Part shown: positions 8,414 through 32,475 of the stretch, in pieces
Layout of the letters: each line of letters opens with the position of its first letter
How positions within the stretch are numbered: position 1 is the stretch's first letter
Origin: an uncultured Lachnospiraceae bacterium
GTDB taxonomy: Bacteria > Bacillota > Clostridia > Lachnospirales > Lachnospiraceae
Length of the DNA stretch: 36,463 nucleotides
Direction: 5' to 3'
Assembly: GCA_944376425.1 (NCBI GenBank)
Contig: CALWCS010000164.1
Location: 1 to 36,463 of the forward strand
Translations under genes and position numbers: made by a program
The notes under the pieces: model-generated
Seen by the model: the letters and a program-made list of their open reading frames with translations, nothing else
Databases searched by the model: none
What the model was told of the DNA's origin: nothing

Positions 8414-9310
8414 TCATTTCTTTTTATAATAATAATACGTCTGTGCTACATTTTTATATCCTTCCTCATCTCCGTCTGCCCCTTCATTCAAAATAATAAT
8501 CTCTTCTTGTTTCAGCATACTGCTGATCTCATTGATTGCGTCTACTGCATCTTGTTCCTCTTTGGCAAGATCGCTTTTCATAACAGGAAAAATAAAATTG
8601 GGAATCCAAAAGTTCTGATCATCCTCTAAAAGAGTAAACTCTTCTTCCTTTAACTGTGTATCTGCTGCATACACCGGTATGCAATCTACCTCTTGATCTT
8701 GTAATTCCTCATACCTTCTGTCACTTTCAATGTTCTTTATTTCCTGAAATTCAAAGTTGCCGTAAACTTGCTCTAAACTAGCAAGCTCTTCTTGTTGTTC
8801 TATCCATTCAGGCGTCATTCCAAATACAAACTGATCTGCATTTGCCTGCAGCTGTGAAATCGTCCATATTCCATATTCTACTGCCGTTTCCGTCCGAATC
8901 CCGATTCCCTTTTGATAATTCACGTTTGAATATTCTAAAACTTCTAAATGATATAATCTTTCATATCCATTTTTTATCGTCTGATATACTTTATCAAAAT
9001 CTGTACTCGGTTCTTCTCCCAATCTCCAAAGCAATGCCGTCTCGGTATATTCGGGATAGACATCAATCCTTCCTTCTCTTAACTCTTCATGAATGTCCAA
9101 GTCTGAAATTCCAAACTTTCTTTCTACCTCAAATCCGGCATCTTCCAAGGCAAGTGCATATAATTCGCCTAAAATCTTATTTTCTGTAAAATCTTTTGCA
9201 CCTACTACAATCTTTTGTTCTCCTGCTTCCTTTTCACACGATGACAGCAAAAATGTTAAGCATAGAGATACTGCTATAATTTTTGCTTTTTTCCTTCTCA
9301 CCTTTTTCAC
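8414..9310 (-). CDS. Glycine betaine/choline-type binding lipoprotein (OpuBC/OpuCC/ProX-like)
   Basis: This is a quaternary-ammonium-family substrate-binding lipoprotein of about 298 residues. The lipobox LLSSC (Cys25) follows a basic, hydrophobic leader. The mature protein opens with IVVGAKDFTENKILGELYALALEDAGF and RIDVYPEYTETALLW, both typical of OpuBC/OpuCC. It is the third gene of an operon behind a response regulator and a histidine kinase, starting 7 bp after the kinase stop. No permease or ATPase accompanies it. It may therefore present a ligand to the kinase rather than feed a transporter, which is inference. Two GTG starts are possible (9310 and 9301); the second has AAGGTG well placed. 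Confidence 0.88.
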   Translation of the reverse strand: MKKVRRKKAKIIAVSLCLTFLLSSCEKEAGEQKIVVGAKDFTENKILGELYALALEDAGFEVERKFGISDLDIHEELREGRIDVYPEYTETALLWRLGEEPSTDFDKVYQTIKNGYERLYHLEVLEYSNVNYQKGIGIRTETAVEYGIWTISQLQANADQFVFGMTPEWIEQQEELASLEQVYGNFEFQEIKNIESDRRYEELQDQEVDCIPVYAADTQLKEEEFTLLEDDQNFWIPNFIFPVMKSDLAKEEQDAVDAINEISSMLKQEEIIILNEGADGDEEGYKNVAQTYYYYKKK

Positions 9311-9319
9311 CTTTTTCTC

Positions 9320-10759
9320 TTATTTTCCGTCTTTTTGCATTGCCGGAATACGAATCCAAAATTCTACCCCTCTTTCTCTATTTTTCACTCCGCATTGTCC
9401 GTTATGTGCCTGGACAATGTCTCTTACAATATACAGTCCCAGTCCTACTCTGCTTTCGTTTTCTTTTTGCTGACTGAGCTGGCTGAATCTTTCCCATATC
9501 TTTTCTATCTCTGTTTCAGAAATTTTTTCTCCTTCATTATACACAGACAGATACAAATCGTCTCCTTCTTTTTTCAAAAGCAAACTTACTTTCTTTCCGG
9601 GATCTGTATGATTGTACGCATTCATAATATAATTTCCAACTGCTTGTTCTATTTGTGCCGGATCAACCTTTCCATAACAGTCCGCTTCAATTTCAGAAAG
9701 AAATTCTATTTTTTTTGTAGAAAGCCATGCCTTATATTTCGGCATCATATTTCGAATTACTTTTGATACATCTAATCGTTCCATCTCTTTTTTTCTCAGC
9801 TTATCTTCCATAAAAGAATTCCCTAAAAGCTGACTGATCATTTGGCTCATCTTATCAATTTCTTCCATAATCGATTCGCAATAATAGTCTTTTTTTGATT
9901 CATCATACTGCAGCATCTCTACCTGACTGGAAATAATTGCAAGAGGTGTCTTTAATTCATGCGTCACATTCGTCACAAATATTTTTCTCATATCTTCAAA
10001 CCGCGCCAAATCTCTGTTTTTCTTCATCAGCAGATAATTATAATTATTCAGCTCGTTCATATCTCTTTGAATTTTTTCCGCCATGTGGTTAATATTGCGT
10101 GCCAGACATCCCAACTCATCATCAGAGACAGGCGTTTCCACCCGAACTGAAAAATCATTTTCTGTAATTTTTTTTGTCACATCATTGATTTTCTCAATTG
10201 GTTTTACGATACTGACTGCCGCTGCATAAGCGAAGATCCCGCCTAAAATTATTAAAATCAGCAGAACATAGATAAGGAAATGATTGGCATAATAGACGCT
10301 CTTTCGGATAATATCCGTGTTTTCATAAATATAGACATAGTATGTCTTGTCTTTTTGGACAATTTTTCCTTTTAAGCTTACTTTCGCTCTGACATCATCT
10401 TTGTCAATCACTGCCTCTGCCTCTTCTAGATACTCTTCTTTCTGGTCTCTCATCTGATGTTTTACCATCTTCTCTTTTGTTCTGCTTCCCGATACATAGA
10501 TCGTCTGAAAGTTCTCATCACAAATCATAGTAAAAAAACTTTCTTCCTCCGATGTCTGAAAAAAATTGTTATTTTCCAGAGAATCATCATCTAGCTCCAT
10601 TGTCTTTAAAGTTTGAAAAGACTCATCCATGATTCTTTTTTTTCTAAACATATAAAAATCTTCTGCAAACAGATAGTAAAACAGACACGTGCCTCCTACT
10701 ACCAGAAATAAAAAAACGCAAAAAGCAAAGACCGCCTTATTCCTTAACTTTTTAAACAT
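9320..10759 (-). CDS. Membrane sensor histidine kinase
   Basis: This 479-residue kinase has two membrane segments (about 9-31 and 160-185) flanking a roughly 130-residue extracellular sensor. A HAMP linker (about 183-235) and the catalytic core follow. The phospho-acceptor motif VTHELKTPL puts the histidine near residue 267. The N box is NYIMNAYNHTDPG and the G box VGLGLYIVRDIV. It overlaps the response regulator by 8 bp and is followed at once by a binding lipoprotein. The sensor sequence does not identify the signal. The lipoprotein next door is the best candidate partner. Confidence 0.95.
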   Translation of the reverse strand: MFKKLRNKAVFAFCVFLFLVVGGTCLFYYLFAEDFYMFRKKRIMDESFQTLKTMELDDDSLENNNFFQTSEEESFFTMICDENFQTIYVSGSRTKEKMVKHQMRDQKEEYLEEAEAVIDKDDVRAKVSLKGKIVQKDKTYYVYIYENTDIIRKSVYYANHFLIYVLLILIILGGIFAYAAAVSIVKPIEKINDVTKKITENDFSVRVETPVSDDELGCLARNINHMAEKIQRDMNELNNYNYLLMKKNRDLARFEDMRKIFVTNVTHELKTPLAIISSQVEMLQYDESKKDYYCESIMEEIDKMSQMISQLLGNSFMEDKLRKKEMERLDVSKVIRNMMPKYKAWLSTKKIEFLSEIEADCYGKVDPAQIEQAVGNYIMNAYNHTDPGKKVSLLLKKEGDDLYLSVYNEGEKISETEIEKIWERFSQLSQQKENESRVGLGLYIVRDIVQAHNGQCGVKNRERGVEFWIRIPAMQKDGK

Positions 10760-11441
10760 CTTTCACCTCAAACCGATAGCCGATTCCATAGACAGACTGA
10801 ATATACGGAGCTGTTTCTGTCATCTTTCTGCGCAGCTGTTTTACTACGGTATCAACAGTCCGGATATCTCCGTTATAATCAAACCCCCACACTGCATTTA
10901 AAATGGATTCTCTCGACAAAACAATGTTTTCGTTTTCAATAAAATAGACCAGTAAATCGTATTCTTTTGGGGTTGTCACGAGCATCTCCCCATTTAGATA
11001 AACTTTTCGGAATTCTTTTTCAATCTCAATCTTTCCTCTTTTTATTTTTTTATTTTTCTTTCGATTACTCCGTTTTAGCAACACTTCCATATGTGCTTTT
11101 AATACCTTTAACAGAAACGGTTTTGTGATGTAATTATCGGCGCCATTTTCCAGTCCCTGAAGCTGCTCTTCTTCTGATTCTCTTGCTGTCAGCATAATGA
11201 TAGGAACCTCTGAATATTCCCGAATCTGTTTGAGCACATCATATCCATCTACCTTCGGCAACATTCCATCTAACAGGATCAGATCAATTTTCTGATTATT
11301 CGCAAAGTAGATATCCAACGCTTCTTGTCCATCTTTTGCTGCCATTACGCAGAAACCGGTTGCCGCCAAAAAATCTTCCAGTGTTTTGCACAGTTTCTTG
11401 TCATCTTCTACCACTAAAATCATGTACTTTTCCTTTTCCAT
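10752..11441 (-). CDS. OmpR/PhoB-family response regulator
   Basis: The receiver domain (about 5-118) has the acidic pair EDD, the phosphorylated aspartate in LILLDGMLP (Asp58), LTAR and the lysine in TKPF. The C-terminal winged helix has TPKEYDLLVYFIEN, RESILNAVWG and RTVDTVVKQLRRK, ending in GIGYRFE. It is the first gene of the regulator-kinase-lipoprotein unit. An alternative ATG at 11423 (MILVVEDD) with AAGGA upstream is equally plausible as the start. No clear promoter was found in the 45 bp after the amidohydrolase gene, so read-through from that gene is possible. Confidence 0.95.
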   Translation of the reverse strand: MEKEKYMILVVEDDKKLCKTLEDFLAATGFCVMAAKDGQEALDIYFANNQKIDLILLDGMLPKVDGYDVLKQIREYSEVPIIMLTARESEEEQLQGLENGADNYITKPFLLKVLKAHMEVLLKRSNRKKNKKIKRGKIEIEKEFRKVYLNGEMLVTTPKEYDLLVYFIENENIVLSRESILNAVWGFDYNGDIRTVDTVVKQLRRKMTETAPYIQSVYGIGYRFEVKDV

Positions 11442-11486
11442 CTGTCACCGTTCTCCATCTTTCTGCCCAAATAGCCATGTTAAGTC

Positions 11487-12386
11487 TTAGTGTACCGTAT
11501 CCTTCGAAAATCTTTTTTTTATTTCCTCTTCCCCTGTCTTTAAGCGTTGTTTCATCGCTTCTTTTTCTTCTCCTATCATATCGCAAAAAGCGTTCCATTC
11601 ATCGTAGATTCCTTGACCGTGAGGTACCGCATAGGCACCGGCATCGCTTCCAAGCGCCAGTATTACCTTTTTATCCCATGCTTTTTTGATCCTTTCTTTT
11701 TGAATTGCATAAATTTCTTGTATCACTTGGTCGTCATAGCGTCCTTTTCCTTCCAGATTTTTTATCGTTGCAATCGTAGGAACCCATATGGTGTGATATT
11801 CTCTCATTGCCTCGATCGCTTCCTCTTCGATATAATTTCCATGTTCAATACTGTCAATTCCTTCTTCTGCTGCAATCGTCACCGTCTCATTCCCGTTTAC
11901 ATGTCCCATAACAGAAAATCCTTCTTCATGTGCAATGTGAATCATCTCATGAATTTCCTCTCTTTGCAGAGGAGAACTTGTCACGACTCCTACTGTGTGA
12001 AAGTCTACAATGCCTGTCAGCATTATTTTTATAAAATCTCCTTTTTGCCTTTTTACTTCCTTTACAAGCAATGCATATTCTTTTAAATCTGAAAATTCTC
12101 TTCCTACAATTTTTCCATAATGTCCCTTTTTATGAATTGCAAAAATCGGCGTCCGGTAATCAATCCCGTATTCCCATGCAATCTCCTTTGCTTTTTTTGA
12201 CACGCCCAGAGCATCTCCTCCATCTCTTATAAATGGGATGTCCATCTTCTGATATACCTCCAGCCATCTTCGCACAGCGTCTTCTTGCACTCCTTTTTCA
12301 TGAATCGATACCGCATGTTTATAATTTTCTCCGTCCATAACCAAATGCGCATGACATTCCCCAAACATCTCTTCATCTTCTTTCAT
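11487..12386 (-). CDS. Amidohydrolase family metal-dependent hydrolase
   Basis: This cytosolic enzyme of the amidohydrolase superfamily has about 299 residues. Metal-site motifs are HAH in ECHAHLVMDG near the N-terminus, a lysine in FIKIMLTG, HVNG, EHGNY and the late aspartate in LGSDAGAYAVPHGQG. These match imidazolonepropionase/prolidase-like members. The protein begins directly at the HAH motif, so the usual N-terminal beta-sandwich segment of these enzymes is absent. This makes it shorter than the typical 380-420 residues. The C-terminal beta-sandwich return is also short. Whether this is a compact natural form or a trimmed gene is unclear. The start at 12386 is the best ATG, but its ribosome site is weak. 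The substrate is unknown. Confidence 0.82.
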   Translation of the reverse strand: MKEDEEMFGECHAHLVMDGENYKHAVSIHEKGVQEDAVRRWLEVYQKMDIPFIRDGGDALGVSKKAKEIAWEYGIDYRTPIFAIHKKGHYGKIVGREFSDLKEYALLVKEVKRQKGDFIKIMLTGIVDFHTVGVVTSSPLQREEIHEMIHIAHEEGFSVMGHVNGNETVTIAAEEGIDSIEHGNYIEEEAIEAMREYHTIWVPTIATIKNLEGKGRYDDQVIQEIYAIQKERIKKAWDKKVILALGSDAGAYAVPHGQGIYDEWNAFCDMIGEEKEAMKQRLKTGEEEIKKRFSKDTVH

Positions 12387-15515: not shown

Positions 15516-16847
15516 CTATTGAAAAGCTGGTCTTGTTGCATCTAAAACTTCATCAGGCTCAAAAAATTCTGTCTGATATTCTCCGTTATAATGCATGGTA
15601 TACCCGTCAAAATTTCTTCTTGACTGACGTACATAATCTCCGTCAATGTATAAAAACTCTTCTGTTCCCCACACACCGCAGAAGAACCGAAAACCTGCTT
15701 CTTGCAGCAATTCCAGTTTTTCTCCCGGATATTCTACTTCTGACCCATATGGATAGATAAAAATATCTGTCTCTCCTACCAAACTTTCTACTTCTGCTTT
15801 CCAATTCTGAATATCTTCCAGTGTCTCTGTTGAGGTAATGACTCCAAAATCACTGTGAGTATAACTGTGGCTTGCGATTTCCCAGCCCGTCTTGCGCAGC
15901 CTTTTTGCAATTGCTCTTACTTTTTTGCAGTCTTCTTCATATGTCTTAGAATCCTTTTGATTCGTCCGATAACCAAATGCTCCTTCGTATCCTGTCTCTC
16001 CTACAATGCCTTTGGCTCCTCTGAGCGAAAAATCCGGGTGTTTCTTTACAAATTCATCTAAAATCGGAATTGCATCGTAATTTCCAATCCATTCTTTTCC
16101 CTCTGCATCCACATATAAATTTTTTACTTCGCCATTTTCATCTAAAACGAGGCATTTGGCAAAACCGTCATTTTTCATATAATCATAGTAATTGATATCA
16201 TCCAAAGAAAGTACAAATGGAATTTTTCCTTTTGGCACGAGAGGATAATTCCGCACGAAAGTGACTTCTCCCGTTTCCTCATCTACCACTTCTGTGACCA
16301 ATTCATGGATATTGATTAAAACGTATCCTTTCTGATACATGCTTTCTAAAATCGCCTCAAACTCCCCAATCGTTGTCATCCATTCATTGTATCCTTGCTC
16401 CATCGCGTCCCCGTCAAATGCTCTTTCTGTATCTACAATCAGAGAATGGAAAAAAATATGTGGTATATTTCCTGTATATTCTCTCATCTGACCTCTGCCT
16501 TGCTGGCATTTTATTTTTGCCTCAATGACGCGCTCATCCTCTTCTTTTTCTTTCGGGACAGTTTCTAAAATTGCCATCGCTCTGTCATAGTCCATTTCTT
16601 TCGTTTCCTGTGTCGCCTGAGCAAGCGTGGCTAAAAGAGCGTTTTCTTCCTTCTGTGCAATTTCTCGAATTTTTCTCTCTGATTTCATTTTCGGTGTCTC
16701 TACTGGCTCATTGTTTTCATACATTCCTGTCGTTCCGATTGCCTCTGCAATCTGTCGGTTGATGGTTGCTTTACTGCATCCTCCCAGCATCACCAAAGAC
16801 AAAACAAGTATCCCGGCGAACATCTTCTTCTTTTTTCTTTTGTTCAT
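15516..16847 (-). CDS. Polysaccharide deacetylase (NodB-type) lipoprotein
   Basis: This 443-residue cell-surface lipoprotein starts MNKRKKKK, then a hydrophobic leader ending LGGC (Cys24). The first 150 residues are helical and charged. The deacetylase region begins IPHIFFHSLIVDTERAFDG and contains the NodB-type FVLSLDD, the metal-binding SHSYTHSD, the FIYPYGSE motif and a C-terminal FFCGVWG. It should remove acetyl groups from N-acetyl sugars of wall or capsule polysaccharide. It is unrelated in position to the split deacetylase at 24-32 kb. The start at 16847 follows a G-rich ribosome site. It has its own promoter. Confidence 0.88.
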   Translation of the reverse strand: MNKRKKKKMFAGILVLSLVMLGGCSKATINRQIAEAIGTTGMYENNEPVETPKMKSERKIREIAQKEENALLATLAQATQETKEMDYDRAMAILETVPKEKEEDERVIEAKIKCQQGRGQMREYTGNIPHIFFHSLIVDTERAFDGDAMEQGYNEWMTTIGEFEAILESMYQKGYVLINIHELVTEVVDEETGEVTFVRNYPLVPKGKIPFVLSLDDINYYDYMKNDGFAKCLVLDENGEVKNLYVDAEGKEWIGNYDAIPILDEFVKKHPDFSLRGAKGIVGETGYEGAFGYRTNQKDSKTYEEDCKKVRAIAKRLRKTGWEIASHSYTHSDFGVITSTETLEDIQNWKAEVESLVGETDIFIYPYGSEVEYPGEKLELLQEAGFRFFCGVWGTEEFLYIDGDYVRQSRRNFDGYTMHYNGEYQTEFFEPDEVLDATRPAFQ

Positions 16848-16900
16848 TTTCCCCACCCCTTTTTTACTGTGCACTCCTTTCTTTTTGCATCTCTAACGTC

Positions 16901-24301: not shown

Positions 24302-24613
24302 TCATTTCTGAATCTGTCTGCCGCTGCTGTCAATCTGATAATTTTCATGATAAATCAGTTCCCAAACCGGTACGATTTGATATCCTTGTTCCATTAATCT
24401 GATAATGACCTGTTCTAAGGCTTCTGCCGTATATTTTGCATCACTGTGCATCAAAATAATTGCTCCATTTTCCAATGCCTGGTGTTCGCTGATAGTTTGA
24501 ATGATACTTTGAACTCCATAATCCCTCCAGTCAAGAGAATCGACTGACCATCCAATTGGATAATATCCGCAGGATTGAACCGTTTCCATTGCTTCTTTAT
24601 CATAGTCTCCATA
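24302..24613 (-). pseudogene. Split polysaccharide deacetylase, C-terminal piece
   Basis: This is the third and last exon-like piece of one PdaB-like deacetylase gene. The true frame reads SPYGDYDKEAMETVQSCGYY from the junction, then the motif WSVDSLDWRDYG and the late ILMHSDAKYTAEALEQVI. It ends VPVWELIYHENYQIDSSGRQIQK and a normal stop. No frameshift or stop is present. The in-frame ATG at 24589 is an internal methionine, not a start. Upstream of codon TA (24612-24613) the frame runs into unrelated DNA of element A. The missing upstream part of the protein is at 29433-29701 and 32088-32308. Joined at the TA dinucleotide the frame is continuous. Confidence 0.92.
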
Positions 24614-24634
24614 GGGAGAGCATATGTTGTGATA
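24591..24634. other. Element A left attachment junction
   Basis: The probable crossover dinucleotide is TA at 24612-24613. To the left is deacetylase sequence (plus strand ...ATAGTCTCCA). To the right is the element arm GGGAGAGCATATGTTGTGAT. This arm is an imperfect inverted copy of the arm at the right end, 16 of 22 positions matching. Confidence 0.8.
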
Positions 24635-24660
24635 ACACCATCTCTTTTTTAGGAGTTTTT

Positions 24661-24840
24661 ATGAAATCTTTCCATCCCCCTGCCGATTCTCTAAATAAAT
24701 GCTCTGATGATAGTTCTCCTTCTTCTGTCGCCACTGTTTCAGGATATCAGATTGCCCGATTTCACAGACAGGACATATCTGCTGAAGAATTATTAAAGCA
24801 AATCATACAGACTCACTGTCATAAAGGAGAACCGATATGA
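24661..24840 (+). CDS. Small protein upstream of serine recombinase
   Basis: I do not recognise this 59-residue protein. A Ser/Pro-rich N-terminal third (MKSFHPPADSLNKCSDDSSPSS) is followed by VSGYQIARFHRQDISAEELLKQIIQTH, which looks like a short helix pair. AGGAG precedes the ATG by five bases. Its stop overlaps the recombinase start (ATGA), so the two are translationally coupled. It is the first gene inside element A, only 48 bp from the junction. Position and coupling suggest a helper of the recombinase, for example in directing excision; this is inference. Confidence 0.75.
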   Translation: MKSFHPPADSLNKCSDDSSPSSVATVSGYQIARFHRQDISAEELLKQIIQTHCHKGEPI

Positions 24841-26393
24841 TATCTTATCCTATTTCTCAGATTTCCAAATCCTCTTTTCGAACCGTATTTTATCTTCGCC
24901 TTTCAAAAGAAGATAAAAAAACAGGAGAATCTGACTCTATTTCCAACCAGCGTCTGATTCTTCAGCATTTTCTTAAGTCTCATCCGGATCTTCAATTTTT
25001 TCGGGAATATATTGATGATGGAAAAAGCGGCACTCATTTTAATCGTCCCGGCTTTTCCAAGATGATGGAAGACTTAGACCACAAACTGTTCGACTGTATT
25101 TTATGTAAAGACTGTTCCAGATTTGGCCGTGATTATATTGAATGCGGTTCCTACATCCGTTCCTTTGATCAGTCTGGCATCCGTTTTATTGCTGTGAATG
25201 ATCAATATGATTCTTTTGATCCTAATCGGGATGATACGATCTTTGCCATTAAAAATGTAATCAATACACAATATTCTCAAAATAAAAGCAAAGAATTAAA
25301 AAAACTGTTTAAAGAAAAGCAGTACAGTGGTCAATATATGGGGGCTTTCTCTGTTTACGGCTATCAAAAAGACGCACAGGAAAAGCACCGTTTTCTTATC
25401 GATCCCTATGCTGCTTCTGTAGTTCAGCGCATTTTTTCTTTATTTTGCAGCGGCATGAAACAACAGTCCATCGCTCGTCTTTTAACGGATGAAGGAGTCT
25501 TACCCCCTGAAGAATACAAACATGCCTCAGGTTCTCGTTTCTGCACTGGCCGGTCAGGTACCTTCCATGGCTGGAGTTATGGAACGATTCATACTATGTT
25601 AAGTAATCCCGTTTATCTTGGCAGTACCGTTCAGAATAAAACGTACCGCAGGTCTCTGCGAGGAAAAGCGCATAAAACTTCTGTTCAGGACTGGATTATT
25701 GTAGAACATACTCATGAACCGATTATTGACATGACTACCTGGGAAAAAACACAGAGGCTTTTAAAGCAGAGAAATGGAAGATCTCCGGATTTTTCTTCCG
25801 TTTCTGCATTCGCAGGATTTTTAAAATGTGCAGACTGCGGAGCGAGTCTTTCTTCCGGTCACTGGGGAAAACAGTCCGTTTTTCTGTGCGGAACGTACAA
25901 ACGTTTCGGCAGATCTTACTGTTCTCCGCATCTTGTTCCCAAACAGCTTCTCTATGATTTCGTTTTAGATGATATTAACCAGTTTTTGCAGTCATATCCT
26001 GACTTTTCCCAAAAACTTATCTTTTTTGCTGATCATTTTTCTCAAAAAATGGCGCTTCCTCCTGATTCTGCTTTCTATGAAAATGCAAATATAGAAGCCC
26101 GTTATGAAAAAATTACAGCTTATAAGAAAAAAATTTTCGAATTATACAGCGATCATTTGATTTCTCTTTCTGACTTTTTACAACTGCAAAATCAGTATGC
26201 CCAAGAAGAACGTCAGCTTGAGCAAAGGAAAAAAAATCTGCCCTCTTCCACGGTCAGGACTTCTTCTCCTTGGATCTGTGAATTTCTTCAGTCCCAAAAG
26301 CTAACTGTCCTTGACCGCAGCATCGTTGCAGATACGATTGACTCTATCTTAGTCTCTGAGGGAAACAAAATTTCCATTTTCTATCGTTTTTAA
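24837..26393 (+). CDS. Large serine recombinase (TnpX/SpoIVCA-like)
   Basis: This 518-residue site-specific recombinase has the resolvase catalytic domain (about 15-160): the nucleophilic serine is in FYLRLSKED (Ser23) and catalytic arginines are in CSRFGRD (Arg95, Arg98). A recombinase domain (about 165-310) has GAFSVYGYQKD and SYGTIHTMLSNPVYLG. A zinc ribbon uses Cys331, Cys334, Cys351 and Cys362. A coiled, charged C-terminal region follows (about 400-490). Such enzymes join attP and attB by a double-strand break with a 2-bp overlap. Excision needs a partner protein. It lies at the left end of element A, next to the junction. It is the obvious agent of integration and excision of the element. 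Confidence 0.95.
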   Translation: MISYPISQISKSSFRTVFYLRLSKEDKKTGESDSISNQRLILQHFLKSHPDLQFFREYIDDGKSGTHFNRPGFSKMMEDLDHKLFDCILCKDCSRFGRDYIECGSYIRSFDQSGIRFIAVNDQYDSFDPNRDDTIFAIKNVINTQYSQNKSKELKKLFKEKQYSGQYMGAFSVYGYQKDAQEKHRFLIDPYAASVVQRIFSLFCSGMKQQSIARLLTDEGVLPPEEYKHASGSRFCTGRSGTFHGWSYGTIHTMLSNPVYLGSTVQNKTYRRSLRGKAHKTSVQDWIIVEHTHEPIIDMTTWEKTQRLLKQRNGRSPDFSSVSAFAGFLKCADCGASLSSGHWGKQSVFLCGTYKRFGRSYCSPHLVPKQLLYDFVLDDINQFLQSYPDFSQKLIFFADHFSQKMALPPDSAFYENANIEARYEKITAYKKKIFELYSDHLISLSDFLQLQNQYAQEERQLEQRKKNLPSSTVRTSSPWICEFLQSQKLTVLDRSIVADTIDSILVSEGNKISIFYRF

Positions 26394-26578
26394 GGTTTTT
26401 CTTCCGTCTCTTTTTCCATCTCAAGAAAAAGATGTGCCATTTTTTTTGCCATCTCGGAAACGGAAATTTCTTTTTTAAATTCTCTTTTGATTTTATACTC
26501 TTTTTGATGAAAAAACAGCTTCTCTTCTTTTTCTATAAGAGAAGCTGTTTCTTGATCTTTCTTTTGCTTCAGACTCAT
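26390..26578 (-). CDS. Small charged protein in element A (62 aa)
   Basis: I do not recognise this 62-residue Lys/Glu-rich ORF. It reads KKDQETASLIEKEEKLFFHQ, then a basic segment and SVSEMAKKMAHLFLEMEKE, mostly helical. An excellent ribosome site (GGAGG, seven bases before ATG 26578) supports it. It follows the siroheme reductase on the same strand, and its stop overlaps the recombinase stop. A 14-bp inverted repeat that looks like a terminator lies inside it, so full-length expression is doubtful. A small basic protein beside a serine recombinase could be a directionality factor, but nothing in the sequence proves this. Confidence 0.5.
   Translation of the reverse strand: MSLKQKKDQETASLIEKEEKLFFHQKEYKIKREFKKEISVSEMAKKMAHLFLEMEKETEEKP
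26507..26556. terminator. Terminator-like hairpin inside the 62-aa ORF
   Basis: AAACAGCTTCTCTT (26513-26526) is perfectly inverted at 26537-26550 with a 10-base loop. The minus strand continues with a run of T, and the plus strand has a weaker T-rich tail. It could end both the recombinase transcript and the reductase transcript. Confidence 0.75.
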
Positions 26579-26658
26579 TGTTTTTCCTCCAAGCTTCTTT
26601 TTTTCTTTACTGTATGCAGCTTTTCCTAAAAACAGCACTGTCTGAATTCATTTTCTTT

Positions 26659-27612
26659 TTAGCACGTTGCTCCGCCTGTCAGATGCAGCTTTGCATCTAA
26701 AATCTCTTGTTTTCTTTCTAAAAGGTCATCGGATAACAGCTGAGATTCCACATTGTCAAAACCAAGTCTTTCAATTGTCTTTGCAAAGCGTTCTCCTGTT
26801 TTGCCTTGTTCACGGAATAATAAAATTGCTTTTTCAATAACGTTTAAAGCTTCTTCTTGATCCGTAAAAATTTTTTTCAAAGCCTGTCCCTGTGCAATTT
26901 TTTTGCCCCATCTTCCTCCGATATAAATCTTATATCCTGTCTGTCCGTCCTCAATTGCATCAAAATGGCAGTTTCCGATACATCGTCCGCAGTTGTTGCA
27001 GATTTCTTTGTCGATTTCCAAAATCCCATCTACTACTTTTGCAGCTCCCATCGGACAGGCAGTCTGGATAGAACATTTTTTGCATCCATTACAGCAATCT
27101 TCATCAAAATTCGGTATTTTCTGTCCGATGATTCCAATATCATTTAAGTCCGGTTTTACACAGTTATTTGGACATCCTCCTACCGCAATTTTAAATTTAT
27201 GCGGTAATTTAACATCGCTGTATCCCTCATAAAATCTATGATGAATTTCTTCAGAGAGAGCAAAGGTGTCAATCAGTCCATACTGGCATGTTGTTCCTTT
27301 ACAGGAGACAACAGGCCGTACTTTTGATCCTGTTCCTCCCGTCACTAATCCCTCTTGTGCTATATAAGCGCGAAACTCTTCAATTTTGTCGTACGGAATT
27401 CCTTGCACTTCCACCGTCAGTCGCGTCGTAAACGTTACGGTTCCATTTCCGAATTTTTCTGCTGCCTCCGCAATACATTTTTGCTGCCGTGCAGTGATTT
27501 TTCCATTGACGGTAATGATTCGTCCAGAGAAGTTGTCCGTTCCTTTGTTGCTTAAAAATCCAATTGCTTTCACTCTTTTTTCATCTTCTTTGCTGATTGT
27601 TAATGTTGCCAT
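26659..27612 (-). CDS. Siroheme/4Fe-4S sulfite (or nitrite) reductase, AsrC-like
   Basis: This 317-residue protein combines a small siroheme reductase with a ferredoxin-like insert, like the AsrC subunit of anaerobic sulfite reductase. The siroheme-[4Fe-4S] cysteines are in SCKGTTCQYG (Cys104, 109) and GGCPNNC (Cys147, 151). Two more clusters are suggested by CCNGCKKCSIQTACPMG and CNNCGRCIGNCHF. The family reduces sulfite to sulfide (or nitrite) with six electrons. AsrA and AsrB are absent, so electrons must come from elsewhere. The FAD oxidoreductase gene lies 21 bp upstream in the same operon and is the natural candidate. Both lie inside element A. Confidence 0.9.
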   Translation of the reverse strand: MATLTISKEDEKRVKAIGFLSNKGTDNFSGRIITVNGKITARQQKCIAEAAEKFGNGTVTFTTRLTVEVQGIPYDKIEEFRAYIAQEGLVTGGTGSKVRPVVSCKGTTCQYGLIDTFALSEEIHHRFYEGYSDVKLPHKFKIAVGGCPNNCVKPDLNDIGIIGQKIPNFDEDCCNGCKKCSIQTACPMGAAKVVDGILEIDKEICNNCGRCIGNCHFDAIEDGQTGYKIYIGGRWGKKIAQGQALKKIFTDQEEALNVIEKAILLFREQGKTGERFAKTIERLGFDNVESQLLSDDLLERKQEILDAKLHLTGGATC

Positions 27613-27633
27613 TGCACCCTCCTGATTTTTTTT

Positions 27634-29259
27634 CTATTGTTCTTCTGTTTCTATCTCATTGAATGTTGTTCCGCCTTCCAGAACACGCGTGTTTCTGTAT
27701 CCGTAATATTTCAGTCTGTTCTGCGTCATATAAGCGCGTTTTCCCTTTGCACATACAAGCAAAATAGGTTCTTCTTTTCCGATTCCTTCCACTTCTCCAT
27801 GAATCTTTGTCAGATCCAGATACATCGCCCCTTCGATCGATGGAGAAACAGAAGCATCGATGATCCGATATCCCTGTGCTTTTCCCTCCTGATATTGTGC
27901 CGGTGTAATTGTCTCAAATGCTCCGTTCATTTTATTCATCAAAATATTGACGGCATGTTCAAATGGATGAATTGCCGTAGAAAACGGAGGCGCATATGCA
28001 AAATCCAGATTTTCCATATCTTCCAACGAGGTCTGTAACGATAAGGCCGTCACTGCAATATCCACTATCTTATCTACTGCGCCTTTTCCGAGAACCTGAA
28101 TTCCCAAAAATTTATGCGTCTTTCTGTCTGCAATCATCTTTATGATAAAATTACCAGCTCCCGGATAATAGTGTGCCTTATCATCTGCGACTGCAACCAC
28201 TGTCTCCACGTCATACCCTGCCTCTTTTGCCGCAGCTTCCGTAAGTCCTGTTCTTCCTACATTTAAGTCCGGCAGTTTTGCCATTCCTGTTCCCAAGACA
28301 CCAGGGTATTTAACCTTTCCTCCTGCGATATGTCTTGCTGCAATTCTTCCTTCTATATTTGCAGATGATCCCATTGCAGACCACTGAGGAGCTTTTGTCA
28401 TACGGTTTGTCACACATGCACAGTCGCCGATTGCGTAGATATCTTCATCGTTTGTCTGAAGAAATTCGTTTACCTTTACTGTTTTATTCGGCATCAGTTC
28501 GATTCCGGTATCGGCAAGAAATGACGTATTGGGACGAATGCCCAGCGACAATACTACTGCATCTGCTTTCATAGCACGTTTTTGTGTCTTTACTTTCTCT
28601 ACTTTCTCTGTTCCTATGATTCCTTCCAGTTTCATTCCTGTAAAAGTCATAATACCATGATCTGCCAGATGATTTTCCACATACTGTGCCATCTCGGGAT
28701 CAAATCCTGGAAGGATATGATCCGCCATATCAATGACAGATACCTTGACTCCTCTTCTGGCAAGATTTTCTGCTACTTCCAGCCCAATAAAACCTCCTCC
28801 GGCTACCACAGCGCGTTTCATCTGTCCTGATTCTGCTGCCTCTCTTAGAGTAATCGCATCTTCTGGTGTGCGCATAAAAAATACGCCCTTTAAATCCATT
28901 CCCTCTATTGCAGGGTGAATCGCACAAGCGCCCGTAGCAATGATTAATTTATCATAACCATACGTATTTTTTTCTCCTGTTTTTAAATCTACTGCTTCGA
29001 CACTCTTAGAGGCACGGTCTAATCCTATTACTTCTACTTCTGTCTTTACTTCCACGCCAGTCAATGCAAAAAAACTTTCAGGAGTATTCACAATCAGCTG
29101 TTCTTTTTCGTGGATTACATCACCGACATAATACGGCAGACCGCATCCTGCATAGGAAATCTCTTTTCCTTTTGTCAAAATAGTCACTTCATATCCACGA
29201 TTCTCTCTTTTTAACTTTGCTGCTGCTTTTGTTCCGGCTGATACACCGCCGATAATCAA
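27634..29259 (-). CDS. FAD-dependent CoA-disulfide/NADH oxidoreductase with rhodanese domain
   Basis: This 541-residue pyridine-nucleotide disulfide oxidoreductase has the FAD site IIGGVSAGTKAAAK, the redox cysteine in SYAGCGLPYY (Cys39), the NAD(P) site VVAGGGFIGLEVAE and AIGDCA. The dimerisation domain is followed by a C-terminal rhodanese domain with its cysteine in LLVCAKGKRAY (Cys503). The relatives are CoA-disulfide reductase-rhodanese fusions and Npsr-type enzymes acting on sulfur, CoA persulfide or polysulfide. The gene is cotranscribed with the siroheme reductase, which suggests a small sulfur-redox module. No ATG is available; the only in-frame start is TTG at 29259 without a good ribosome site. 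Upstream codons (K V K I) still match the usual N-terminus. Confidence 0.9.
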   Translation of the reverse strand: MIIGGVSAGTKAAAKLKRENRGYEVTILTKGKEISYAGCGLPYYVGDVIHEKEQLIVNTPESFFALTGVEVKTEVEVIGLDRASKSVEAVDLKTGEKNTYGYDKLIIATGACAIHPAIEGMDLKGVFFMRTPEDAITLREAAESGQMKRAVVAGGGFIGLEVAENLARRGVKVSVIDMADHILPGFDPEMAQYVENHLADHGIMTFTGMKLEGIIGTEKVEKVKTQKRAMKADAVVLSLGIRPNTSFLADTGIELMPNKTVKVNEFLQTNDEDIYAIGDCACVTNRMTKAPQWSAMGSSANIEGRIAARHIAGGKVKYPGVLGTGMAKLPDLNVGRTGLTEAAAKEAGYDVETVVAVADDKAHYYPGAGNFIIKMIADRKTHKFLGIQVLGKGAVDKIVDIAVTALSLQTSLEDMENLDFAYAPPFSTAIHPFEHAVNILMNKMNGAFETITPAQYQEGKAQGYRIIDASVSPSIEGAMYLDLTKIHGEVEGIGKEEPILLVCAKGKRAYMTQNRLKYYGYRNTRVLEGGTTFNEIETEEQ

Positions 29260-29316
29260 AATTTTAACTTTGCTTCGCTTCCTTTATCCTTTATTTTACA
29301 AGCCTTACCTGTTTTT

Positions 29317-29325
29317 TTTATTATA
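29317..29325 (-). promoter_or_regulatory. Extended -10 promoter of the oxidoreductase operon
   Basis: On the minus strand TATAAT (29325-29320) is preceded by TGA, an extended -10. No good -35 is seen. It lies inside element A, so the operon is transcribed without host flanking DNA. Confidence 0.6.
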
Positions 29326-29411
29326 TCATTTTTTAGAGTCCTCGAAAAATACTAATTTCTTATTAAGCTGATAGGTAATCTTTATCAGTTTGTACCGTTC
29401 ATCTGCATATT

Positions 29412-29455
29412 TTTCACATTTTATGCCCTCCGTACGGAGACCGAAATAGTCTCAT
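29412..29455. other. Element A right attachment junction
   Basis: The probable crossover dinucleotide is TA at 29433-29434. To the left is the element arm (plus strand TTTTCACATTTTATGCCCTC then CG). To the right is deacetylase sequence CGGAGACCGAAATAG. In the middle piece the joined codons read TCT CCG TA-, matching TCT CCC TA- at the other junction. Confidence 0.8.
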
Positions 29456-29701
29456 CTCTACTCCTGTCAAAGCTTTCACCTTTTGATGTAATTCCATAAT
29501 TTCTCTTCGGCATTCTTCTTTTCCAAGTTCACTTATGTTTTTATAGTTTTCTGTATAATTTCCAATATCATGACCTGCTTGTGCAATTTTTTTTACTTCT
29601 TCCGGATACTCGTCAACCCATCCGCCTGTCACAAAAAACGTTGTTTTTAAATCATATTTTGCTAAAATTTCTAAAATTTTCTGTATCTCTTCGTTCCCCC
29701 A
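29433..29701 (-). pseudogene. Split polysaccharide deacetylase, middle piece
   Basis: This piece encodes the second section of the deacetylase: WGNEEIQKILEILAKYDLKT, then FFVTGGWVDEYPEEV, AGHDIGNYTENYKN, ECRREIMELHQKVKALTG and LFRSPYG. It runs from the element B junction (CA, 29700-29701) to the element A junction (TA, 29433-29434) without a stop or frameshift. Residues outside these limits in the surrounding frame (MAKKKRIHDP at the start, GHKM at the end) come from the elements. The usual metal-binding His-x-x-x-His appears as Tyr-Thr-Glu-Asn-Tyr, as in PdaB-type proteins, which have degenerate metal sites. The piece has no ribosome site of its own that would make sense. Confidence 0.92.
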
Positions 29702-29721
29702 CCGCGGATCATGAATGCGCT
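29681..29721. other. Element B left attachment junction
   Basis: The probable crossover dinucleotide is CA at 29700-29701. Left of it is deacetylase sequence ending GTTCCCC. Right of it is the element arm CCGCGGATCATGAATGCGC. Confidence 0.7.
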
Positions 29722-29737
29722 TCTTTTTTGCCATCCC

Positions 29738-29766
29738 TTGCCTTTTTTTGTTAAAATAGATATAAT
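29738..29766 (+). promoter_or_regulatory. SigA-type promoter of the LysR gene
   Basis: TTGCCT (29738-29743), a 17-bp spacer and TATAAT (29761-29766), 33 bp before the start codon and wholly inside element B. Confidence 0.75.
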
Positions 29767-29799
29767 AAAAAAAAGATTTACAGAAGAAGAGGAATCACT

Positions 29800-30747
29800 A
29801 TGACACTGCGTCACCTTAAAATTTTTTTAGAAGTTGCAGATACCGGAAAAATGAGTACTGCGGCCAAAAATCTATATATCACTCAGCCTTCCGTTACTCA
29901 GGCAATTCATGAATTGGAAAGTCATTTTCATGTTCTTTTGTTCGAACGACTTTCCAGAAAACTTTATATTACAGAAGCCGGAAAGCTTTTTTACGGATAC
30001 GCAAGGCAGGTAGTCTCTCAGTACGACCAGCTGGAATCTCATATGTCTGATCATTTTCTCACAGAGACGATCCGGATGGGAGCAACTATTTCTGTCGGTG
30101 GAAGTATTCTCCCTGATCTCATAAACCAATTTGAAAAAGAAAATCCTTCTACCAACCTTTTTGTCCGTGTTACCAACACAAGAGATGTAGAAAAAAAACT
30201 TTTAGATATGGAGCTTGATGTAGGACTGGTAGAAGGAAATATAAAAAGTCCAGATCTCGTGGTGCTTCCTATGATCTCAGACTTTCTTGTGCTTGTCTGT
30301 CACAAAGATCATCCTTTTGCCCAAAAAGAGATTCTCTATACTCATGAACTTAAAAATCAGCATTTTGCAATGAGAGAACCCGGAAGCGGAACACGTGAGC
30401 TGTTTGAGCAGTATTTAGAACAGTATCATATTCCTATTCAGACTGTTTTAGAAGGTAATACCCCGGAAACCTTAAAAAACGCAGTGATACACAACCAAGT
30501 ACTCTCTGTCTTATCTTTTCGTCTGATTGAAAAAGAATTAAAACAAGGACTTGTCCATATTTTCACCCCTGTGGAACATAACTGGAATCGCTCCTTTAGT
30601 TTTGTATATCATAAAGATAAATTTTTAAGTTCTTCTATTCTTTCTTTACAAAATTTAATAAAGATCTATGGTGAAAATGAAAATTTGAACGAAGTCGAAA
30701 CTGCCAAGCTGATTGCTGATCCCGAAAGCTTTTCATCATCCTGCTGA
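29800..30747 (+). CDS. LysR-family transcriptional regulator
   Basis: This 315-residue protein has the LysR winged helix at the N-terminus (TLRHLKIFLEVADTGKMSTAAKNLYITQPSVTQAIHELESHF, residues 2-44). A periplasmic-binding-like effector domain follows, from about residue 90 (IRMGATISVGGSILPDLINQFEKENP). It lies 56 bp upstream of the exporter genes on the same strand, inside element B. It probably controls them or itself, perhaps in response to an amino acid. It is oriented away from the oxidoreductase operon of element A. Confidence 0.94.
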   Translation: MTLRHLKIFLEVADTGKMSTAAKNLYITQPSVTQAIHELESHFHVLLFERLSRKLYITEAGKLFYGYARQVVSQYDQLESHMSDHFLTETIRMGATISVGGSILPDLINQFEKENPSTNLFVRVTNTRDVEKKLLDMELDVGLVEGNIKSPDLVVLPMISDFLVLVCHKDHPFAQKEILYTHELKNQHFAMREPGSGTRELFEQYLEQYHIPIQTVLEGNTPETLKNAVIHNQVLSVLSFRLIEKELKQGLVHIFTPVEHNWNRSFSFVYHKDKFLSSSILSLQNLIKIYGENENLNEVETAKLIADPESFSSSC

Positions 30748-30803
30748 TAGACGTTATGATACTTATGACCAATATTTTCAATTAAAAGGGAGGTTATTTG
30801 AAT

Positions 30804-31592
30804 ATGCCGCTTAATCCCTTCTCCGTCGATTATCATCTGATTGCCGATACAGCAATGCTGGCAGGTGAAATTATGCTGGTAGCGGGTGCGGAGACTTATC
30901 GTGTAGAAGATACTATGATACGGATTCTAAAGACATCTCAGTTTGACCGGTGTGATGCTTTCGTTGTTCCAACCGGCATCATGCTTACCTTAGAAGACTG
31001 GCGAATCGGTACGATCAGTCTGAACAGACGGATCGGTGAGAAACAGACGAATCTCGGAAACATTGAAAAAGTTAATGATATCTCCAGAAAATACTGCTGC
31101 GAAGAACTTACTTTAAAAGAAACCTTTCACCAATTAAAATATATGCAGTCTGTTTCTTACCCTCACTGGGTCACATATCTTGCCATGATCATTTGCGCTC
31201 CTTGTTTTGTCCTGATTTTGGGCGGAAGATTCAGAGAACTTTTCATTGCTGCTTTTAATGGACTTTTTATTATTTTAAGTAAGATGATGAATCAAAAATT
31301 AAAAATAAACAATTTTGTTCTGAATCTGTTTGCCAGTTATCTGATTGCCTTTACAAGCTCCCTTTTTCAGCATTTGCTTTATGAAGATCTGCTTTTGGAG
31401 CCTTTAATCACCGGTTCTGTTATGGTTCTTCTCCCGGGCGTAGCAATGACGACCGGTATCCGGGATACTCTGGAAGGAGATTTTATGTCGGGAGGCGCAA
31501 GAATGATTGAAGCATTTGTGATCGCTGCATCGGTTGCAGTTGGAATCGGGATTGGTCTTTCTAGCTGTAATCTTATATTTTCCTTATTTTAG
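30804..31592 (+). CDS. Threonine/serine exporter family, large (ThrE N-terminal) subunit
   Basis: This 262-residue membrane protein matches the first domain of ThrE-type exporters. The N-terminal cytosolic part has DTAMLAGEIMLVAGAETYRVEDTMIRIL, then VVPTGIMLTL and the TISLNRRIGEKQTNLGNIEKVNDIS segment. About five membrane segments follow from residue 120, including ITGSVMVLLPGVAMTTGIRDTLEGDFMSGGARM. The ATG at 30804 is preferred over TTG at 30798, with GGGAGG upstream. It is paired with the small subunit gene 11 bp downstream. The expected job is to pump out threonine, serine or similar small amino acids. Confidence 0.9.
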   Translation: MPLNPFSVDYHLIADTAMLAGEIMLVAGAETYRVEDTMIRILKTSQFDRCDAFVVPTGIMLTLEDWRIGTISLNRRIGEKQTNLGNIEKVNDISRKYCCEELTLKETFHQLKYMQSVSYPHWVTYLAMIICAPCFVLILGGRFRELFIAAFNGLFIILSKMMNQKLKINNFVLNLFASYLIAFTSSLFQHLLYEDLLLEPLITGSVMVLLPGVAMTTGIRDTLEGDFMSGGARMIEAFVIAASVAVGIGIGLSSCNLIFSLF

Positions 31593-31603
31593 GAGGAAGA
31601 TTT

Positions 31604-32038
31604 ATGATAATTTTACATGCGCTCGGCGCTTATGGCTCTGTAATTGCTCTGTGTATTATTTTTTGTGTTCCAAAAAAATATTTAAATCTCTCAGGAATGG
31701 TTGGAACTGTCGGATGGCTGATCTATATTTTATTAAGCGGCAATACCTCTACTGAAATGTTTCCTATGTTTTTGGCCGCTCTTATCGTCTCTGTTATTTC
31801 TCATATTTTTGCAAGATGGAAGAAAGCCCCGGTTACCTTATTTTTGATACCAGGTATTTTACCGCTTGTTCCCGGAGTCGGGATGTATCGAATTGTATAC
31901 TATTTCATGCTGGAGGGCAGTCAGTCTAATATGACTTCTTACTATTTCGTCTATACTCTTCAAATGGCCGGGATGATTGCTATTGCAATTTTTATTACAG
32001 ATACATTTTTTAAAGTGTTCTTTCGTCATCCGCGCTAA
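31604..32038 (+). CDS. Threonine/serine exporter family, small (ThrE C-terminal) subunit
   Basis: This 144-residue integral membrane protein has four to five hydrophobic segments and the conserved FLIPGILPLVPGVGMYRIVYYFMLEG stretch of the second ThrE domain. In Corynebacterium the two domains are one protein; in many Firmicutes they are two adjacent genes, as here. The ribosome site AGGAGG is strong. The gene ends 50 bp before the element B right junction. No hairpin terminator of its own was recognised. Confidence 0.88.
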   Translation: MIILHALGAYGSVIALCIIFCVPKKYLNLSGMVGTVGWLIYILLSGNTSTEMFPMFLAALIVSVISHIFARWKKAPVTLFLIPGILPLVPGVGMYRIVYYFMLEGSQSNMTSYYFVYTLQMAGMIAIAIFITDTFFKVFFRHPR

Positions 32039-32067
32039 GTATCCTTTTGCCAAAAAGACAGGCATGG

Positions 32068-32108
32068 TGCGCAGTCAACCGCCGCCCCATGCCGCGTCAA
32101 ATGTCAGT
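32068..32108. other. Element B right attachment junction
   Basis: The probable crossover dinucleotide is CA at 32088-32089. Left of it is the element arm GCGCAGTCAACCGCCGCCC. Right of it is deacetylase sequence TGCCGCGTCAAATGTC. A 7-bp inverted repeat GGCATGG/CCATGCC (32061-32067, 32087-32093) spans the junction. Confidence 0.7.
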
Positions 32109-32308
32109 GCTACATTTGCCTGTTCTGTATCGACACAGCAGATCGGTCTGTTTTTCTCTTCTATCTGTGCGCTCGCCGGCAAACTGCTTTTTTCCTGCCC
32201 ATTTTCAAAATAATAAAATCCTGTGATAAACAGCAAAAGACAAAGACTCAGCAGTCCCGCACCTCTGAATTTATGAATCCACTGATCTAGTTTCTTTTCG
32301 TTCTCCAT
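32088..32308 (-). pseudogene. Split polysaccharide deacetylase, N-terminal piece
   Basis: This piece starts the deacetylase: MENEKKLDQWIHKFRG, a membrane anchor (GLLSLCLLLFITGFYYF), a short linker and CVDTEQANVALTFDAAWG. The last shared codons are GCA TGG GG, continued at 29700. A good ribosome site (GGGGGA) precedes the ATG at 32308; an in-frame ATG four codons earlier (32320) is possible, and the open frame reaches 32392. After the junction the frame adds a few residues and stops. The TFDxxWG form of motif 1 and the anchor fit PdaB-like sporulation deacetylases. Total joined length would be about 265 residues, normal for the family. Confidence 0.92.
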
Positions 32309-32475
32309 ATTTTCCCCCATCAATCTATTTCCCTGTATCTTATGAGTTTTTCCAAAAAAAGAGAACGCTGCTTTTTCTTTTTTCTTTTGCATGATATACT
32401 ATTGGAAGCATAACAGAATATTGTAACTTGTAATACAAAATTTTTTGATTTAGTTGAAAGGAATAAAATTAAGAA

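Follow-up and report, generated by a model that had tools for sequence, protein, structure and literature searches.

A PdaB-like polysaccharide deacetylase gene divided by two elements in an uncultured Lachnospiraceae bacterium, and a serine recombinase family that recurs in cell-wall genes

Is a gene that two separate elements have cut into three pieces a gene that is being lost, or one that the cell puts back together by removing the elements from its DNA? The question is raised by a polysaccharide deacetylase gene in a 36,463-nucleotide stretch of DNA (the window; contig CALWCS010000164.1, here G000:C164, in an assembly of 190 contigs, GCA_944376425.1) from an uncultured Lachnospiraceae bacterium. 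The initial annotation of the window described three collinear minus-strand pieces of one such gene, and all three were located: piece A (32088..32308), which runs from the anchor helix through TFDAA and a TG dinucleotide; piece B (29433..29701), from WGNEE to RSP and a TA dinucleotide, which includes motif 2 (YTENY here) and matches Polysacc_deac_1; and piece C (24302..24613), from YGDYD to the stop codon, which corresponds to positions 103-191 of the PdaB profile TIGR02764. The element ends were defined by the core dinucleotide shared at each break, and excision was computed core to core. Joining the TG at 32089/32088 to the TG at 29701/29700 takes out 2,388 bp (element 1), and joining the TA at 29434/29433 to the TA at 24613/24612 takes out 4,821 bp (element 2). 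What is left is the predicted 798 nt in frame, 265 codons and a stop, with no internal stop or frameshift, and the pieces abut exactly at the shared dinucleotides. The inserts also lie where they had been placed, in conserved motifs, the first in motif 1 (TFDAAWG; site 1) and the second in motif 3 (RSPYG; site 2). A second intact copy was not found in the genome, where the other matches to piece B were only 31% and 35% identical. Another deacetylase-like protein, uninterrupted and with a weak Polysacc_deac_1 match (E 1.2e-10), is encoded on the minus strand of the window at 15516-16874.

The description of the joined product as a complete PdaB-like deacetylase stood in part. The joined protein aligned with all 191 positions of TIGR02764, and its nearest solved structures were polysaccharide deacetylases, but both histidines of motif 2 have been lost. 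Its score of 206.2 bits does not reach the equivalog cut-off of 237.4 bits; two intact relatives (214.7 and 213.6 bits) likewise fall under it and by this measure are PdaB-like rather than PdaB proper.

We propose that the gene is rejoined by excision of the kind known for skin and gin, and we put the probability that this is a real feature of the system at about 0.7. Both elements would be excised during sporulation, and the three pieces would join as the single 265-codon frame. A serine recombinase and a small directionality factor of what is here called the YxIEREF kind would pair the ends of each element, and the gene would be joined through the dinucleotide in the center (TG in element 1, TA in element 2); with unlike cores, neither site would recombine with the other, and piece B would be protected. 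Element 2 would use the recombinase that it carries, whereas the enzyme for element 1 would act in trans and would most likely come from an amidase gene elsewhere in the genome (G000:C17). By analogy with skin-type systems, excision is predicted to be limited to the mother cell, with the spore retaining the inserts.

The age of the breaks bears directly on this proposal. Three genomes of the genus were compared, that of the window (G000) and two others (G001 and G002). In G001, both breaks lie at the same places as in the window, element 2 lacks two metabolic genes, and element 1 lacks a LysR gene; G002 has the first break only. The breaks have thus been kept while the cargo turns over. A chance origin of the split is excluded, because both breaks are found at identical codons in another genome of the genus and the first is seen again across the family. 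The annotation had offered recent insertion as one explanation of the intact frames, and this is not supported: both breaks are common to a genus-mate that has diverged from the window at 70-79% of the synonymous sites in the pieces, the first break is present in the second genus-mate as well, and a single recent insertion in the strain of the window was accordingly rejected. Its other suggestion, continuing selection for the rejoined form, fared better. The ratio of nonsynonymous to synonymous differences per site (pN/pS) of pieces A, B, and C was 0.18-0.43 in nine within-genus comparisons, and in a simulation without selection, with 0.1, 0.25, and 0.5 changes per site, the frame remained free of stops in 25, 1, and 0 of 2,000 runs, respectively. 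Open frames and pN/pS point to selection on the window's own copy too, less strongly so because its motif-2 histidines are gone. An artefact of assembly or binning is unlikely, as collinear splits with a recombinase between the pieces were present in two records without "MAG" (metagenome-assembled genome) in the title, those of Anaerosacchariphilus polymeriproducens MCWD5 (L108) and Bacterium 1xD42-87 (L165).

The distribution of the split was assessed in two samples. In the first, 200 genomes of the family, matches of at least 44% identity were counted as orthologues and those of 41% or less were taken as paralogues. An orthologue was present in 83 genomes and was split in 11 of them; the 11 split genes were inspected singly, and an open frame of at least 243 codons was the criterion for counting the remaining 72 as intact. 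Two of the genes (in G125 and G162) are broken near VDSLDW only. The sporulation marker SpoIVA exceeded its cut-off in 134 of the 200 genomes, in 79 of the 83 with an orthologue, and in all 11 with a split gene (Fisher p 3e-14 for co-occurrence of the orthologue and SpoIVA). The best profile is PdaB, albeit below its cut-off, and the interrupted gene is a putative sporulation gene, likely one of the spore wall. The recombinase family, at E 1e-90, was found in 18 of the 200 genomes. The second sample was a scan of named genomes with eight query recombinases, from which the best 80 of 534 loci were used; all eight queries came from the deacetylase gene, a choice that favors this target, and the proportions that follow are not a population estimate. 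The deacetylase gene was assigned at 42 of the best 80 loci, 40 of them within 3 kb of a piece; the other two are L108, which lies in that gap but 4.2 kb away, and L137, recognized from its left half. At 21 of the 42, a family recombinase separates two site-1 halves that share a strand, and in L103, the G001 locus, the recombinase is in element 2. The rest included 12 loci with the left half only (one of which, L104, is a site-2 case), five with the right half only, and two with neither; L122, with its recombinase beyond piece C, and L142 are doubtful. An Amidase_3 (CwlD/CwlC-like) gene lay within 3 kb at 31 loci and further off at two; two more loci (L125 and L168) carried an amidase left stub, and the remaining three had no assignment.

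Outside the genus, 26 elements with both ends were listed, and five duplicated loci reduced these to 21 distinct site-1 splits. All 21 rejoin in frame, 17 of them with a continuous rest of 187-193 codons. The other four are broken again, at motif 3 with different ends (G084), at VDSLDW (G028), or at FFMTGGW (L128 and L148). In total, six genes have two breaks, including those of the window and G001, and four different break sites are known. The second break of A. polymeriproducens (G084:C49:303200-342860; L092 and L093) spans about 40 kb and holds a different serine recombinase, and at L109 (1207-4596) extra C-terminal deacetylase fragments lie behind a full B and C part. The gene at L104 has a break at site 2 and none at site 1, and the recombinase there is the nearest to that of the window outside the genus (52%) among the best 80 of 534 loci. 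The elements range from 1.6 to 11.5 kb; a family recombinase was present in all 26 of those listed and absent from element 1 of the three genus genomes.

Could the pieces instead be used singly, as separate proteins that are never rejoined? Pieces B and C each have a possible start codon. The active-site motifs, though, are divided among the pieces, and canonical motifs stand on both sides of the break in split genes outside the genus. The break codon is informative too. For this count, search patterns left the first three bases free, the first match per locus was taken, and seven duplicate loci were excluded beforehand. TG stood at the start of all 37 left halves, in seven of which the Trp codon was lost at its third base, and TGG was read by 32 of the 32 right halves. 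Coding constraint thus extends to TG in the left half and relaxes beyond it, and in the right half it begins at TG, the pattern expected from selection on a gene joined at that dinucleotide; a break codon that is not Trp in some left halves and is kept in the right halves is expected only if the two are joined. The use of the pieces as separate proteins is consequently very improbable, and continuing selection for the rejoined form is well supported in these relatives.

Both elements in the window have symmetric ends of the serine recombinase type flanking the shared dinucleotide (TG in TFDAAWG, TA in RSPYG). The left arm of element 1 (32065..32084) reads CGGCGGTTGACTGCGCACCA on the minus strand and is matched by the right arm (29705..29724), inverted relative to it, at 12 of 19 positions (p 0.0004); the arms of element 2, at 29410..29429 (left) and 24617..24636 (right; GCATATGTTGTGATAA on the plus strand, also present in G001 with one difference), are symmetric at 14 of 19 (0 of 20,000 by chance). 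The left arm pattern GGCGGTAACTTGCGGTAA occurs at many site-1 loci of other genera, with an inverted copy as the right arm, and TGCG or TGTG occupies positions 16-19 in most arms. Site 1 (TG), site 2 (TA), and the amidase site (CA) share one register when positions are counted from the core dinucleotide. This register was spotted by inspection before symmetry was assessed, and the p-values are therefore after the fact. Symmetry was also seen in element 1 of G001 (13/19, p 0.00005) and at site 2 of L104 (11/19, p 0.001); the amidase elements of G000, G001, and G002 gave 9, 10, and 6 of 19 (p 0.007, 0.03, and 0.12).

Element 2 (24614..29434) encodes a recombinase, two small proteins, and two redox proteins. 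The recombinase (24837..26393, plus strand; 518 amino acids) is a large serine recombinase with Resolvase, Recombinase, and Zn_ribbon_recom domains, whose N-terminal serine S23, which we take to be the catalytic residue, is invariant in 8 of 8 aligned sequences. A promoter for a spore sigma factor was looked for by eye upstream of it, and nothing convincing was seen. The two redox genes, a sulfite-reductase-like gene with NIR_SIR and ferredoxin cluster matches (26659..27612, minus strand) and a CoA-disulfide-reductase-like gene with a rhodanese domain (27634..29259, minus strand), are the ones missing from element 2 of G001, where a homolog of the second product (58% identical) is encoded on another contig. 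Element 1 (29702..32089) carries a LysR-type regulator gene (29800..30747, plus strand), missing from the elements of both G001 and G002, and the first (30798..31592) and second (31604..32038; ThrE_2) parts of a ThrE exporter, both on the plus strand and both retained in G001 and G002, as is piece A. A ThrE pair 30-32% identical to that of the window is present in the deacetylase element of another genus (L084, G171:C56, 7694-8753), as if this cargo had been gained twice or long retained. Searches of the open reading frames of both elements against Pfam and NCBIfam revealed no phage structural or replication genes, only a recombinase and cargo. A phage origin of element 2 was considered and found to be unsupported: 391 phage records match the recombinase, all at less than 60% identity, the best of those listed at 34%.

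Large serine recombinases are paired in the proposed mechanism with a directionality factor, for which the small YxIEREF proteins are candidates. The first (24661..24840, plus strand; 59 amino acids) overlaps the start of the recombinase, and the second lies on the minus strand at 26390..26614. At 78 of 84 loci, a profile hidden Markov model (HMM) grown from two members detected a small open reading frame immediately before the recombinase gene; the six misses include the three amidase elements of the window's genus. Built without members of the genus, the HMM still found the first small protein of the window (E 2.5e-5) and that of G001 (3e-7), together with the second small protein, both that of the window (9e-4) and that of G002 (9e-8); it did not match the second small protein of G001 or anything in the amidase loci of the genus. 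Comparison of the profiles of the two types supported a link moderately (probability, 64-74%). A search of the three genomes turned up the second type once in each, and the first type only in G000 and G001. The deacetylase element of G002 thus holds the sole candidate factor located in that genome, whose nearest recombinase (37%) belongs to the amidase element. The small protein has 140 relatives among public proteins, and the 120 listed are all without a Pfam domain. Pfam, PHROGs, and solved structures gave no convincing match, the top structure match being a 14-residue stretch repeated three times. The bacteriophage SP-beta proteins YokA and YotN are, we presume, those otherwise called SprA and SprB. 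The nearest solved relatives of the recombinase family are YokA with YotN, and TnpX (PDB 9dxd, 9dxh, and 2mhc); to the YotN fusion the small YxIEREF protein had no convincing match. We infer from its position, size, and conservation, and from the precedent of GirX, that it is a directionality factor.

How an element without a recombinase could be excised depends on the second target of the family. In all three genus genomes, a gene for a protein with Amidase_3 and SPOR domains is split after DPG at a His codon, by elements of about 1.5-1.8 kb that hold the recombinase gene and little more (L102, G000:C17, 277-1924; L189/L021, G001:C5; L101, G002:C44); in the window's genome, the right half carries both domains. 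At L189 (G001:C5:14000-21000, offset 2808), the recombinase lies in a 522-codon frame with the amidase's own start (MAKIVIDPGHG...), so that the start of the host gene would drive the recombinase. More widely, the amidase core is a CA in the first His codon of DPGHGG. Among 43 amidase loci examined, with search patterns that fixed part of this core, 18 had the left stub, 34 the right half, and 15 both. One right half scored 205.9 bits against the CwlD profile TIGR02883 (cut-off, 221.55 bits) with the first six profile positions missing.

In an IQ-TREE tree of 81 recombinases, in which several long branches leave parts unsure, the target label needs 9 changes (the starred branches force 8), compared with 27.2 when shuffled; the site-2 recombinases of the window, G001, and L104 form one clade (100/100). 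Near-identical pairs occur across the two targets (97.1% for L127 in the deacetylase gene and L114 in the amidase gene; 96.5% for L145 and L150), and identical recombinases occur in two amidase genes of one assembly, Clostridiales MO.6_4 (L123 and L124). Near-identical recombinases in both targets imply that one type of enzyme must act at both, which makes excision of element 1 by the recombinase of the amidase locus plausible. The arms agree with this in a suggestive but not decisive way: those of element 1 coincide with their own genome's amidase arms at 7-10 (G000), 8-12 (G001), and 6-13 (G002) of 19 positions and match those of element 2 at 5-8 (G000) and 4-7 (G001). Separately, the amidase-gene recombinases of Emergencia sp. 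1XD21-10 (L107) and Mediterraneibacter agrestimuris (L115) are 98% identical in hosts of different families, which suggests recent horizontal spread.

Several observations weigh against the proposed excision. None of the three genus genomes has a recombinase in element 1, and the window's element 1 arms resemble the amidase arms just slightly more than they do those of element 2 (7-10 versus 5-8). The arms of element 2 of G001 are only weakly symmetric (8/19, p 0.06), and those of element 1 of G002 are not symmetric (7/19, p 0.22). TA is self-complementary and by itself would not fix the orientation of element 2. A search of viral contigs with one stringent, exact attP pattern gave 0 matches. 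At L152 (Bacterium 1xD8-48, 9031-11649), the recombinase is flanked by pieces A and B in opposite orientations, as after an inversion. Synonymous differences of 0.58-0.90 place several of the pN/pS comparisons near saturation. Finally, both motif-2 histidines are Tyr in the window (YTENY) and G002 (YSEHY), where most relatives have HSENH, and at 90 columns conserved at 95% among 43 other rows (four rows shortened by a further break were excluded) the window departs 17 times and G002 departs 18 times (two of these being gaps).

These points could be read as the mark of ordinary integrative elements in a gene that is being lost, with element 1 trapped for want of a recombinase and the deacetylase decaying in this lineage. 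Loss of the motif-2 histidines, conserved-column changes well beyond the maximum of 9 in the other rows, recombinase-less element 1 in every genus genome, and the asymmetric arms in G002 all fit such decay. It does not account for G001, which has the same breaks and no element 1 recombinase but retains canonical motifs, with 4 of the 90 columns changed. Both histidines are likewise kept in 26 of 26 intact genes and, outside the genus, in every split gene that includes the stretch (19 of 19). Several changes are common to the window and G002 and point to one ancestor; after them, all pieces have remained open and constrained between these two genomes (0.43, 0.23, and 0.33 for A, B, and C), and the arms of element 1 in the window are still symmetric. 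We therefore regard trapped elements in a decaying gene as unlikely. Altered chemistry is a separate matter. The Asp and two His residues are presumably the metal ligands of CE4 deacetylases; this set is incomplete here, as Ala replaces the second Asp of motif 1 in each of the 50 aligned rows, which makes metal use doubtful in the whole group, and the histidines of motif 2 are Tyr in the window and G002. The product of the window lineage is probably still in use and may no longer be a metal-dependent deacetylase.

Excision could also act as a switch, random or stress induced rather than a step of sporulation, leaving the gene on in a fraction of cells. The timing of excision is unreadable from sequence, no spore promoter was identified, and yin, an element in yabG, was reportedly excised in cultures at all time points (PMC10747680). 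The co-occurrence of the gene with SpoIVA and the presence of CwlD-like amidases among the other targets argue for sporulation, since inactivity of the gene during growth would carry little cost and bring no obvious benefit. We consider a switch of this kind improbable and favor excision during sporulation.

Known inserts in sporulation genes provide the closest comparisons. The gin element in gerE of Bacillus cereus ATCC10987 is 28.6 kb long, has three recombinases and a 42-amino-acid small factor, GirX, occurs in a few Bacillus strains, and has been shown to excise (PMC5595907). The elements described here resemble gin as non-phage elements in a likely sporulation gene, with a serine recombinase in element 2, a candidate small factor, and a short shared core at which the gene would be rejoined; in contrast, they measure 1.6-11.5 kb, interrupt cell-wall genes of many genera rather than a regulator gene, and can be two to a gene, one of them without a recombinase, and their excision is predicted from sequence. 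The skin element in sigK, SP-beta in spsM, vfbin in spoVFB, and yin are described as prophages or prophage-like (PMC10747680, PMC4191935, and PMC5025042). Like the present elements in their likely sporulation gene, they are inserts with a serine recombinase (here in element 2) and gene-restoring excision, shown or predicted, whereas no phage genes were seen in the window elements and the target genes are different. Among the titles and abstract beginnings searched, none concerned an insert in pdaB, cwlD, a spore amidase, or Lachnospiraceae; subscription papers and most preprints were outside this scope, and such an insert may be published.

The inserts are likely DNA-level introns spread among sporulation genes. 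A broader reading, which we offer tentatively and at slightly less than even odds, joins these strands into a clan of DNA-level introns in spore-wall genes of Lachnospiraceae and allied anaerobes, served by one homing recombinase family, spliced in the mother cell, and with a divided machinery. The family would home on catalytic-residue codons of the PdaB-like deacetylase (four sites) and of CwlD-/CwlC-like amidases and jump between these genes, with splicing at the DNA level by the recombinase and a previously unnamed small directionality factor. Two introns in one gene would be kept apart by their different central dinucleotides, and in the window's genus, the recombinase-less deacetylase intron would rely on the recombinase housed in the amidase-gene intron.

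In the literature surveyed, inserts in sporulation genes are each one element in one gene of a few strains. Here, one recombinase family is found repeatedly in the cell-wall genes of many genera, with double inserts in some genes, target switching, and apparent sharing of parts. If excision does occur, such genes reach automatic annotation only in fragmentary form, and the family would supply as tools dozens of natural recombinases whose attachment sites are mapped, together with a candidate family of directionality factors. Programmed DNA rearrangement would then be a routine step of sporulation in many anaerobes, and it becomes testable how a terminally differentiating bacterial cell tolerates mobile DNA within useful genes.

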